Assembly: GCA_012520945.1 (NCBI GenBank)
Contig: JAAYNH010000081.1
Location: 1-64,000 of the forward strand
Source: Treponema sp.
GTDB lineage: Bacteria > Spirochaetota > Spirochaetia > Treponematales > Treponemataceae
DNA length: 64,000 bases
Reading direction: 5' to 3'
The translations under genes and the position numbers were made by a program. A model generated the notes under the pieces. That model searched no databases. It saw only the letters and a list, made by a program, of their open reading frames with translations, and was not told the DNA's origin. How positions within the stretch are numbered: position 1 is the first letter of the stretch; the number at the start of each line of letters is the position of its first letter. This document shows, in pieces, positions 25,983 through 52,300 of this stretch.

Positions 25983-26651
25983 CTATTTTACTCCATATTC
26001 TGTGTAATATGCGTCAATAGCCGATTTAGTTTTTTCGTTAATAAGTGTGCCGTAAAGAGCTTCTACAACTTCACTCATTGAAACAATAGCACGTGCAGGA
26101 AAGCCATATAAGTCAGTGATTTCATCTAATGCACTTTTTGAACCTTTACCTCTTTCTTGACGATTTAGCGAAACAATTAAACCGATAATTTTTATAGAAT
26201 CTTTTGAAGAACCTTGTGCTTGAATAATTGGGAATGTTTCTTCGATTGATTTACCGGAAGTTGTAACATCTTCAATTATAACAACACGATCGCCATCTTT
26301 AATTTTTGTACCGAGAAGAATGCCGGTATCACCATGGTCTTTAATTTCTTTGCGGTTTGAGCAATAACGAATTTCTTTACCGTAAAGTTCGCTGTAGGCA
26401 ATAACAGTTGCAACGCTGAGAGGAATACCTTTGTATGCAGGACCAAAAAGGACATCAAAATCATCACCAAAATTTTCATGAATAGCCTGTGCATAATAAC
26501 GGCCGAGCTGCATTAATTGGCTACCGGTTTCATATGCTCCGGCATTCATAAAAAAAGGACTTTTTCTGCCACTTTTCAGCGTAAATTCTCCGAATTTAAG
26601 AACGTTGCATTCTACCATAAAATTAATAAAATCTTTTTTGTATGCTTTCAT
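25983..26651 (-). CDS. pyrE: Orotate phosphoribosyltransferase
   Basis: Converts orotate and PRPP to OMP in pyrimidine synthesis; 222 aa. The PRPP-binding motif VVIIEDVTTSGKS is near 115-127; LKSGRKSPFFMNAG (about 23-36) and FGPAYKGIPL (about 68-77) are substrate-binding segments. Last gene of a minus-strand unit behind a GT8 glycosyltransferase and an acyltransferase. No clear Shine-Dalgarno precedes its ATG. Confidence 0.95.
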   Translation of the reverse strand: MKAYKKDFINFMVECNVLKFGEFTLKSGRKSPFFMNAGAYETGSQLMQLGRYYAQAIHENFGDDFDVLFGPAYKGIPLSVATVIAYSELYGKEIRYCSNRKEIKDHGDTGILLGTKIKDGDRVVIIEDVTTSGKSIEETFPIIQAQGSSKDSIKIIGLIVSLNRQERGKGSKSALDEITDLYGFPARAIVSMSEVVEALYGTLINEKTKSAIDAYYTEYGVK

Positions 26652-26660
26652 AAAAAAACT

Positions 26661-48310: not shown

Positions 48311-51300
48311 TTAAACAAAAAATCTAACACCGGCTTCAAAAATATTTTGATACATATTGCCGGGTATGTTTTTCAATAAGTCTGTTGAAACAACGTTATT
48401 TATGTTGCCTCTGTTCAAATGGTAATGTCCAGGTTCTATAGCACGTTCACTATGTCCTATTTTGCCAAGAACATTGCCATCCGGAGAGACAAGGCCTTCG
48501 ATTGCATAGTTTGATCCGGTTGGATTATCCGGTTCGGTAATAGCAGGTTTGCCATTTTCATCAATGTATTGAGAGAAAACCTGTCCTTTTTTAAATAATT
48601 CTTTTGCGGTTTTCTCATTAATTATGAGGCGGCCTTCTCTGTGAGAAATCGGCATAAGGTGATAATCCGGTATGATTAAGGATAAATCGTTTGCCCAAGC
48701 TGTTTTACAACTTGTCACACGAGTTCTAACAATGCGTGATACATGACGGCCTACTGTATTAAATGTCAAAGTAGGCATATCTTCTTCAGATTGTAAATAT
48801 ATTTCTCCGAAAGGTAGAAGTCCCACTTTTAGAAGAGCCTGAAAACCGCTACCAATACCTAAAACCAAACTGTCACGATCTTTTATTAATGACATAACAG
48901 CGTCCGAAATGTTATTAATACGTAAAATGTTTGCAATAAATTTTCCACTGCTGTCCGGTGAGTCTCCGGCACTGAATCCGCCGGAAAGTGCTAAAATTTG
49001 AGCTGTGTCTATTTCTTTTTGTAAAATTTCCAAAGATTCTTTCAATTCTTCTTTTGTGTTATTGCGGAAAACTAAAGTTTTTGTTTCTGCACCGGCTAAA
49101 GTAAATGCACGATCAAGGTCATATTCGATATTTGTTCCCGGAAAAACAGGAATTAAAACTTTAGGTTTATCTGCACCGACAACGTAAAAGTTGCGTGGTT
49201 TTTTCTCAACTTCTTTGCGAGATTTTTTGACGGATTTATGTAGTTTTTTTGCAAAGTTTGGCATTTTCTTTTTGCCGTTAAGTATTGTTGATTTAATTGA
49301 ATTATTATTTGAAACTTGAGGGAAAATTTCTGATAAAGGTTTTTCCCAAACATTGATTGCTTCATCTAAACTTATGCGAACAATGTCATTATTAGTCATT
49401 AAAATAGATATTTCTTTTTTTTCTTGTGTGCGACCAATTTCAAGCCATTGTAAATCGTTATATTTTATCTCTCCTTCTGTTTCTATAACTATGGACCCGT
49501 ACAATGGAACAAAAAGTAATTCTTGAATGCTGGAATTTAGATAACAACCGATTTTGTTTCCAAAGGCCATTTTACTTACTGCTTCAGCAATGCCACCGGC
49601 ACCGACAGGATACATTGCACGAATTTTGCCTGTTTTATTCATTTCATAAATGCGTCGTGCATTTTCTTTGAAAGTTTCAAATTCCGGTGCCAATACTTCC
49701 GAATATGATTGAATTGCAACATAAATATGGCTTTCTGTATTTTTAAAAGCACCGGAAGTTATATTTGCAACATTTTCAGTGGCAACGGCAAAACTAACTA
49801 ACGTTGGAGGTACACAAAGATCTTTGAATGTTCCGGACATACTATCTTTACCGCCGATGGAAGGTGTTCCCATAGCTTTTTGAGCAGAAAGAGCACCTAA
49901 GAGGGCGGCAGACGGTTTACCCCACGATTCATCATTAATCATTTTTTCAAAATATTCTTGGAAAGATAAACGAGCTTTTTCAGCGTCCCCGCCCATTGCC
50001 GTTATTTTTGCCAATGAATGTAAAACTGCAATTTGTGCTCCGTGCCACGGAGACCATTGTGCAATGCGTGGGTCATAGCCAAAACTCATCAAGCTTGTCG
50101 TTGAAGTTTCAAAAGGTGGTAGAACAGGAATTTTTGCAACCATACCGGCTTCAGGTGTACTTTGATATTTTCCGCCCATTGGAAAAAGTATTGTGGCGGC
50201 ACCTATTGAACTGTCAAAACGTTCTGTTAAACCACGCTGTGATGAACAAGCTAAATCACTTAAATTTTCTAAGAAAGCTTTTTTTAATGTTTGAGGTTGT
50301 ATGCCTTTTGTTTTGCCGGCCATTTCTGCCGGTTCCGTTGCTAATACTTTTTTTACGGAAGGCAAAGGTTGGCAAAGAGGAGAAGACATGCGAACCGGAT
50401 TTGTAATTTTTGCCCTTGTTGAACGACCCGCACCGGCAGTGTCTAAAAATTCTCTGTCAATGTCAACAATAGTTTTACCGCGCCATTTCATTACAAGACG
50501 ATTTTTGTTCGTAACTGTGGCGATAACTGTAGCATTTAGATTTTCTTCAGCTGCAGCCTTAATTAAAAAGTCAACGTCTTTTTCACGCACAACGAGTGCC
50601 ATACGTTCTTGACTTTCGGAAAGTGCCAATTCTGTTCCATTTAATCCTTCGTATTTTGTTGGAACAGCATCTAAGTTTATTTCTAAGCCGTCTGCCAGCT
50701 CCCCTACAGCAACGGAAACACCTCCTGCTCCAAAATCATTACAACGGCGAATAATGCGACTCACTTCGGGATTGCGGAATAAGCGTTGAATTTTGCGTTC
50801 TTCTACAGCGTTACCTTTTTGAACTTCTGCCGCCGCCGCAGTAAAAGATTCAGCAGTATGTACCTTTGATGAGCCGGTTGCTCCACCGATGCCGTCACGG
50901 CCTGTTGCTCCTCCTACAAGTACAATACAGTCTCCGGCTTCAGGTTCTTCGCGAATAACAATGTCAGCAGGAGCGGCAGCAATAACAGCACCTAGTTCCA
51001 TGCGTTTGGCTTCAAAGCCACTGTGATAAATTTCTGTAACTTGTCCGGCAGTTAAACCTATTTGGTTACCGTATGAAGAATAACCTTGAGCGGCTTCTTG
51101 TGTAAGTTTTCTTTGTGGTAGTTTGCTTTCAAGTGTTGCCGAAAATTGCACTGTTGGATCACTAGCTCCTGTAACGCGCATAGATTGATAAACCCACGAG
51201 CGTCCGGAAAGCGGATCGCGAATAGCACCGCCAACACAAGTTGCCGCTCCGCCAAAAGGCTCAATTTCCGTAGGATGATTATGTGTTTCATTTTTGAACA

Positions 51301-52300
51301 TTAAAAGCCAACGTTCTGTTTTTTCGGCATTTTTATTTGAAGTATCTTTTGTATGCACATCAATATAAATGGAGCAAGCATTTACTTCTTTTGAAATTTC
51401 AATATCATCAAGTTTGCCATGTTTTTTAAGATACTTTGCACCGATGCAAGCTATATCCATAAGGGAAACAGGCTTGTCTTTTTCTCCGTAAACATCCGTT
51501 CGCATTTGTGTATAATCTGATAAAGATTTTTCAAATAATTCCTTAAAATCACCATCTTCTATTTCAATATTTTCAAGCACTGTATTAAATGTTGTATGAC
51601 GGCAGTGGTCAGACCAATATGTGTCTAAAAGTTTTATTTCAGTTTCGGTTGGATCACGATTAATTTTTTTGAAATAATCTTGCATAAATTTAGTGTCAGC
51701 CATATCCATTGCTAACTGCATTTTATCGTGATAAGATTTTAATTCTTCGTTATTATAATTTATGAAACCGGTTTGAACGGGAATATCGTCAGGAGATTGT
51801 GTTTCTATCTGTAGTGTCTTTGGAATATTCGTATTTGTTATTAAACGCGAATCAACAGGATTTACAAGATAATTTTGTATTTGTTCAACATCGGCTAAAG
51901 AAATGTCTCCGGAAATTATTACTACTTTTGCACAACGAACCTTTGGACCTTCAGTGCCAAATTTAACATCTTCATTCAAAACTTCTTGTAAAATAGTTAA
52001 GTTTTGTTCTGCATTGTCTGCACGTTGATCATATTGTCCCGGAAGATATTCCCAAACAATTACAGTGTCATTGTCTTTTGTCTTAATCTCTCTGTGATAA
52101 ACATAATCTGTTTGAAAGTCAGAAAAAACGCGTTCGGTTGCAGAGTCGGCAACTGTGTAAGTAATGTTTTCAATGTCATATCTGTTTAAATATCGAACTT
52201 CTGTAATTCCAGAAATTCCCAAAAAATCGGTCAATTCAGACTTAATACGCAAAGCTTCATTGTCAAAGCCTGCTTTTTTTTCTATAAAAATGCGATACAT
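48311..52300 (-). CDS. purL: Phosphoribosylformylglycinamidine synthase, single chain; glutaminase Cys missing
   Basis: 1329 aa, fourth step of purine synthesis, the long clostridial-type fusion of PurS-, PurL- and PurQ-like parts. Synthetase motifs: ETHNHPTEIEPFGGAATCVGG and GTPSIGGKDSMSG. A Lys-rich linker (about 1010-1055) precedes the glutaminase domain (PVFPGTNIEYD, LSGGFSAGD, HREGR). The expected GICNGFQ nucleophile segment reads GIGSGFQ: Gly1150 (codon 48853-48851) replaces Cys. FGAM synthesis might then depend on free ammonia. First gene of a minus-strand unit with the lipoprotein and two CBS proteins. Leaderless-type start. Confidence 0.93.
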   Translation of the reverse strand: MYRIFIEKKAGFDNEALRIKSELTDFLGISGITEVRYLNRYDIENITYTVADSATERVFSDFQTDYVYHREIKTKDNDTVIVWEYLPGQYDQRADNAEQNLTILQEVLNEDVKFGTEGPKVRCAKVVIISGDISLADVEQIQNYLVNPVDSRLITNTNIPKTLQIETQSPDDIPVQTGFINYNNEELKSYHDKMQLAMDMADTKFMQDYFKKINRDPTETEIKLLDTYWSDHCRHTTFNTVLENIEIEDGDFKELFEKSLSDYTQMRTDVYGEKDKPVSLMDIACIGAKYLKKHGKLDDIEISKEVNACSIYIDVHTKDTSNKNAEKTERWLLMFKNETHNHPTEIEPFGGAATCVGGAIRDPLSGRSWVYQSMRVTGASDPTVQFSATLESKLPQRKLTQEAAQGYSSYGNQIGLTAGQVTEIYHSGFEAKRMELGAVIAAAPADIVIREEPEAGDCIVLVGGATGRDGIGGATGSSKVHTAESFTAAAAEVQKGNAVEERKIQRLFRNPEVSRIIRRCNDFGAGGVSVAVGELADGLEINLDAVPTKYEGLNGTELALSESQERMALVVREKDVDFLIKAAAEENLNATVIATVTNKNRLVMKWRGKTIVDIDREFLDTAGAGRSTRAKITNPVRMSSPLCQPLPSVKKVLATEPAEMAGKTKGIQPQTLKKAFLENLSDLACSSQRGLTERFDSSIGAATILFPMGGKYQSTPEAGMVAKIPVLPPFETSTTSLMSFGYDPRIAQWSPWHGAQIAVLHSLAKITAMGGDAEKARLSFQEYFEKMINDESWGKPSAALLGALSAQKAMGTPSIGGKDSMSGTFKDLCVPPTLVSFAVATENVANITSGAFKNTESHIYVAIQSYSEVLAPEFETFKENARRIYEMNKTGKIRAMYPVGAGGIAEAVSKMAFGNKIGCYLNSSIQELLFVPLYGSIVIETEGEIKYNDLQWLEIGRTQEKKEISILMTNNDIVRISLDEAINVWEKPLSEIFPQVSNNNSIKSTILNGKKKMPNFAKKLHKSVKKSRKEVEKKPRNFYVVGADKPKVLIPVFPGTNIEYDLDRAFTLAGAETKTLVFRNNTKEELKESLEILQKEIDTAQILALSGGFSAGDSPDSSGKFIANILRINNISDAVMSLIKDRDSLVLGIGSGFQALLKVGLLPFGEIYLQSEEDMPTLTFNTVGRHVSRIVRTRVTSCKTAWANDLSLIIPDYHLMPISHREGRLIINEKTAKELFKKGQVFSQYIDENGKPAITEPDNPTGSNYAIEGLVSPDGNVLGKIGHSERAIEPGHYHLNRGNINNVVSTDLLKNIPGNMYQNIFEAGVRFFV

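Follow-up and report, generated by a model that had tools for sequence, protein, structure and literature searches.

The purL gene lies at positions 48311–52300 on the minus strand of the window, the whole stretch of 64,000 nucleotides that was analyzed, and all PurL features described here are on that strand. It encodes a single-chain FGAM synthase of the TIGR01857 type with 1329 amino acids. The gene had been described as full length, and the frame is indeed open from 52300 to 48311. In a profile search, the protein matched positions 2–1239 of the 1239 positions of TIGR01857 with 1598.2 bits, above the curated cut-off of 1057.05. The Pfam domains are the FGAR-AT linker, the AIRS domains, and GATase_5. 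The N-terminal PurS-like region (aa 1–180; 51761–52300) is assigned by homology through the full-length TIGR01857 match, and its boundary is approximate. It is followed by the linker and FGAM synthetase domains (aa 181–995; 49316–51760), in which the active-site and nucleotide motifs are intact. Motif comparison also found the conserved ATP and FGAR motifs of the synthetase unchanged, as had been stated from a reading of the sequence, and 2 of the 198 conserved columns in aa 1–995 are altered. The C-terminal GATase domain, a putative pseudo-glutaminase (aa 1044–1329; 48314–49171), matches PF13507 with 206 bits and has a predicted GATase fold.

A variable linker rich in Lys and Arg (aa 996–1043; 49172–49315) precedes the GATase domain and contains no conserved columns. 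The earlier note called this Lys-rich linker unusual. The richness is real (15 Lys or Arg in 56 residues), but it is not unusual. Since the same linker varies among all relatives and the intact relative L004 has 15 such residues in 50, the linker is uninformative and was rejected as a signal.

The nucleophile position of the GATase domain is occupied by Gly1150 (GGT, 48851–48853) in place of Cys, and the next residue is Ser1151 (AGC, 48848–48850) in place of Asn. The elbow thus reads LGIGSGFQ where GICNGFQ is expected, and the codons and coordinates first given for Gly-Ser are exact. In a profile of 34 GATase domains aligned with Thermotoga PurQ (3d54_D) and Salmonella PurL, the Gly1150 column falls on the Cys of GICNG/GVCNG, and the GICNGF/GVCNGC alignment is unambiguous. 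The domain therefore lacks the Cys of the class I G-x-C-x-G elbow. The predicted structure of the domain (pLDDT 86.5, pTM 0.88) has a strand at residues 103–107, residue 108 (Gly1150), and a helix at 109–117, which together form the nucleophile elbow. Its least certain parts are loop 69–73 in the GDSPD region and the insertion 247–269. In a Foldseek search, the best PDB matches of the model were Salmonella PurL structures (E = 1.5e-17), and PurQ 3d54_D was matched as well, so that the class I GATase fold is predicted to be intact. A nucleophile elsewhere in the domain, which would have overturned the initial reading, is ruled out by the alignment and the predicted elbow position.

The partner residues of the class I triad, His1220 and Glu1222 (48635–48643), are retained. 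The description of the HREGR segment as intact is right for these two residues, but the residue between them is Arg1221, where nearly all relatives have Gly. In addition, the loop that reads GGFSAGDEPDG in relatives is GGFSAGDSPDS (48950–48982), with Glu1114 and Gly1117 replaced by Ser. Ser1151, or the Cys of TSCKTAW at about aa 1198, could be proposed as a replacement nucleophile with which glutamine is still used. The Ser stands beside the lost Cys, and His1220 and Glu1222 are kept. However, Ser1151 lies in the Asn column, one residue past the elbow, and the Gly-to-Arg change at 1221 and the Glu-to-Ser change at 1114 would be unexpected in a working site. Moreover, human CPS1, in which Ser replaces the Cys itself, is inactive with glutamine (PMC4655335). 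We regard a replacement nucleophile as highly improbable.

The loss of conserved residues is concentrated in the GATase domain. Ten of its 62 conserved columns are changed, compared with 2 of 198 elsewhere in the protein (Fisher p = 1.4e-5). An error of sequencing or assembly is conceivable, as the genome is a draft and the only available assembly of its species. Yet the two adjacent codons are accompanied by changes in about eight other near-invariant GATase columns, all confined to this domain, and the frame is unbroken. Because of this combination, chance or sequencing error is unlikely. The same Cys-to-Gly change also recurs in other genomes, and the error explanation is extremely improbable.

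Among 219 aligned PurL proteins, 211 have the Cys, one row is truncated, and seven, including that of the window, are without it. Four of the seven are from other spirochaetes, with the elbows GIGDGFH (G007), GIGTGFH (G042), GVASGFQ (G373), and GVGAGFA (G032). These four show the same one-sided, GATase-biased change as the window protein (p from 5e-4 to 5e-9), and the remaining 213 rows have a mean of 0.4 changed GATase columns. All five spirochaete proteins retain the GATase domain. The other two Cys-less proteins come from loci of Clostridia MAGs (L066, GIGNGFQ; L093, GISNGFQ), keep the His and Glu, and group together with 96% support. Gly is the replacing residue in five of the seven. Parsimony on a tree of the synthetase part alone requires at least four losses of the Cys. 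As reconstructed from these alignments, the loss is recurrent and mostly from Cys to Gly. The window protein and that of G007 may share one loss event, with a pairing support of 57%; the intact PurL of G014 joins these two at 96%. An alignment across related Treponema had been suggested as a check for lineage-wide loss. Loss throughout Treponema was rejected, as the Cys is present in the nearest relatives (G012, G014, G029, and G017) and the loss recurs elsewhere. In two further PurL proteins, L222 (from G329) and L098, the Cys is kept and the catalytic His is replaced by Cys or Asn (SCGEGR and SNGEGR).

The genome that contains the window is a 2.19 Mb draft of 119 contigs, 95% complete, and the absences reported for it rest on that draft. 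Its named relatives by PurL belong to Treponema. A search for separate purQ and purS genes, which the earlier note had advised, found neither: in profile searches, the purL of the window is the sole match to PF13507 in the genome, and PF02700 (PurS) has no match. The genome thus does not encode the separate genes of a PurS/PurQ/PurL multi-subunit system. A search of plasmids brought nothing further. The sole PF00117 match is HisH, whose elbow GICLGSQ is intact and whose gene adjoins hisF, its usual partner. Since HisH is intact, some glutamine is, as judged from its motif, still used by the cell. Ammonia might then be supplied to PurL in trans by a separate glutaminase, such as this HisH or an undetected PurQ-like protein. 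HisH keeps its Cys, and small-PurL systems do function with a separate PurQ. On the other hand, the genome has one match each to PF13507 and PF00117, HisH is encoded beside hisF, and the docking place on PurL is still occupied by its own GATase domain. Supply in trans is very unlikely. Of the two ways out offered at first, ammonia is thus favored, and a separate glutaminase is disfavored.

Other glutamine-dependent enzymes of this genome are also altered. CarA, PyrG, GuaA, and TrpG of relatives, joined into one query, gave a single match in the genome, a short GuaA at C108:8577-9524. This is a stand-alone synthetase of about 317 amino acids with its motifs present and no GATase domain, and it scores 430.9 bits against the GuaA C-terminal model TIGR00884 (cut-off 338.75). 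CarA and PyrG had no match to this query of relatives' proteins in the 95% complete draft. By eye, an ORF at 25983–26660 on the minus strand of the window reads as orotate phosphoribosyltransferase (PyrE), even though neither CarA nor PyrG turned up.

PurM and PurC were recovered with a second query, as was a single PurF homologue. This homologue (L302; L318:10161-11607, on contig C73) starts with MGGFFG, in which a Gly aligns with Cys1 of Bacillus PurF. Its PRPP-site motif IDDSIVRGT is kept, and its score falls short of the PurF cut-off. The sole PurF homologue found in the genome is thus a paralogue without the N-terminal Cys. Its function may be another one, and G029 seems to carry a similarly diverged second PurF beside a normal one. 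In C73, purE is directly followed by purM. The order in G012 is purE-purF-purM, and purF also adjoins purM in G014, G007, and G042. This difference in gene order suggests that the ordinary purF was once present between purE and purM and has since disappeared. No match to PF13522 (class II GATase) or PF00120 (glutamine synthetase) was found in the 95% complete draft, and GlmS and AsnB had no match in this draft genome (G000).

The changes in PurL could also be read as early decay of the gene, in which the cell is giving up purine synthesis and drift has begun with the GATase domain. The faster change of the GATase domain than of the rest of PurL, the failure to find CarA and PyrG, and the existence of several Treponemataceae genomes without any PurL would agree with such decay. 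However, the 1329-residue frame is open, and conserved positions outside the GATase domain are nearly all unchanged. The frames of PurM, PurE, and PurC are open as well, and the Cys-less PurLs of four other spirochaete genomes are still full length. Decay is unlikely, though less so than the other alternatives.

Glutamine is regarded as an almost universal source of nitrogen in purine synthesis. Amidotransferases hydrolyze it on the enzyme and pass the resulting ammonia through a channel. Formation of the glutamyl thioester in class I glutaminases requires the nucleophile Cys. When the glutaminase of an amidotransferase is disabled, the enzyme often still accepts ammonia. E. coli PurF lacking its Cys remains able to use ammonia (PMC3261824), and mammalian CPS1 is an ammonia-using enzyme that keeps a GATase-like domain in which the catalytic Cys is replaced (PMC4655335). 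From class I glutaminase chemistry, the PurF mutants, and the natural precedent of CPS1, PurL of the window would be expected to use ammonia. The abolition of glutamine use in PurL, proposed from the missing Cys at the outset, is a well-supported inference, with the nucleophile and other conserved glutaminase residues gone and no PurQ in the genome.

We consider it likely that the PurL of the window is an ammonia-dependent FGAM synthetase with a retained pseudo-glutaminase, and that it is part of a wider change in the genome by which nucleotide synthesis has moved away from glutamine and toward ammonia. The synthetase half would be working, with glutamine hydrolysis lost. Free ammonia would enter the synthetase site, and FGAM would be formed from FGAR, ATP, and ammonia. 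The C-terminal GATase domain would be kept as a folded pseudo-glutaminase, probably with a structural role; the multidomain enzyme probably needs it either structurally or to keep the path of ammonia closed. All glutamine steps of purine synthesis found in the genome (PurF, PurL, and GuaA) are predicted to be without a functional glutaminase. Since glutamine synthetase was not found either, purine synthesis is most likely fed by ammonia from the surroundings. The habitat would be rich in ammonia, with glutamine probably scarce and ammonia plentiful for the cell. Related MAGs come from gut or rumen according to their record titles, which would agree with such a habitat.

Damage to glutaminase sites extends to further enzymes in the other four spirochaete genomes with a Cys-less PurL. 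The five genomes were followed by hand, and a large control set was used for glutamine synthetase only. In G007, PyrG (L149, LGIDLGMQ) and the TrpG-TrpD protein (L157, LGIDSGFL) have Asp for Cys in otherwise well-preserved proteins, and PurF has GHVLYETTN where GHVRYSTAG is expected. In G373, the Cys of CarA is replaced by Gly (L147, GIGLGNL), and GuaA is a short stand-alone protein. G042 likewise has a short stand-alone GuaA; its CarA (L148, GICIGHL) has GHL for GHQ with loss of the Gln, and its PurF reads GHVRYSPTD. PurF of G032 has Ser for Cys (VMSGIFG) and the motif GHVKYSFAN, and glutamine synthetase was not found in this single-contig, 99% complete genome. The PurF, CarA, GuaA, and TrpG motifs are normal in the intact controls G014 and G029. 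A second, extra PyrG of G014 (L164), otherwise well preserved, has Asp in place of the nucleophile Cys. G012 is intermediate. Its PurL is intact, and its PurF keeps the Cys but has lost conserved residues (GQVLYAKAK, SHTE). At its GuaA loci L254 and L262, one copy is without most of the GATase domain and has TGEFKST for SGGVDST in the PP-loop, and a separate, intact stand-alone GuaA is also encoded. As read from these motifs, glutaminase losses do not always travel together, since PurL of G012 is intact despite the damaged PurF and one damaged GuaA. Glutamine synthetase is missing from two of the five Cys-less genomes and from one of the 75 others (p = 0.009, which is only a guide since the genomes are related). 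Because G007, G042, and G373 keep it, loss of glutamine synthetase is not a general partner of the loss of the Cys in PurL.

In other families, amidotransferases that use ammonia and carry a relic GATase domain are already known. The PurL of the window shares the full-length match, domain order, and intact synthetase motifs of the TIGR01857 proteins of Clostridia and Treponema, and it differs in having lost the catalytic Cys along with several conserved residues of the glutaminase. Mammalian CPS1 resembles it in the retained GATase-like domain without the catalytic Cys. However, CPS1 is another enzyme, its change is from Cys to Ser rather than Gly, and its ammonia activity is proven, whereas that of the PurL of the window is predicted. 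Archaeal PurF' without the N-terminal Cys, which has been suggested to be ammonia-dependent, is likewise a purine-pathway amidotransferase homologue without its nucleophile, though of class II (Ntn); in the same survey, archaeal PurQ/PurL glutaminases had kept both Cys and Glu without exception (PMC3261824). The gammaherpesvirus vFGARATs are PurL homologues in other roles, which a cited study calls pseudo-enzymes (PMC5811070). They are viral tegument proteins with new functions, unlike the PurL of the window, whose synthetase half is conserved. Ammonia-only and glutamine-using NAD synthetases coexist across bacteria (PMC3376133). The glutaminase domain is absent from the single-domain ammonia-dependent forms, whereas the PurL of the window keeps an inactivated one. 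In the open-access literature, we found no report of a cellular Cys-less PurL, of coordinated glutaminase loss across nucleotide synthesis, or of glutamine-free purine synthesis in treponemes.

An annotation as glutamine-hydrolyzing that is taken from profile scores can mislead, since the PurL of the window lies far above its equivalog cut-off. For the wider group, the evidence is evenly balanced on whether these spirochaetes are giving up glutamine for nucleotide synthesis. PurL, PurF, GuaA, CarA, PyrG, and TrpG would then have repeatedly, and in part jointly, lost their nucleophiles or whole glutaminase domains, sometimes together with loss of glutamine synthetase, and the enzymes would run on environmental ammonia. 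Enzymes that have repeatedly lost the nucleophile and still keep the domain form a natural set for asking why an inactive GATase domain is needed. They also raise the questions of the route by which external ammonia reaches the synthetase site and of which ecology makes glutamine dispensable.
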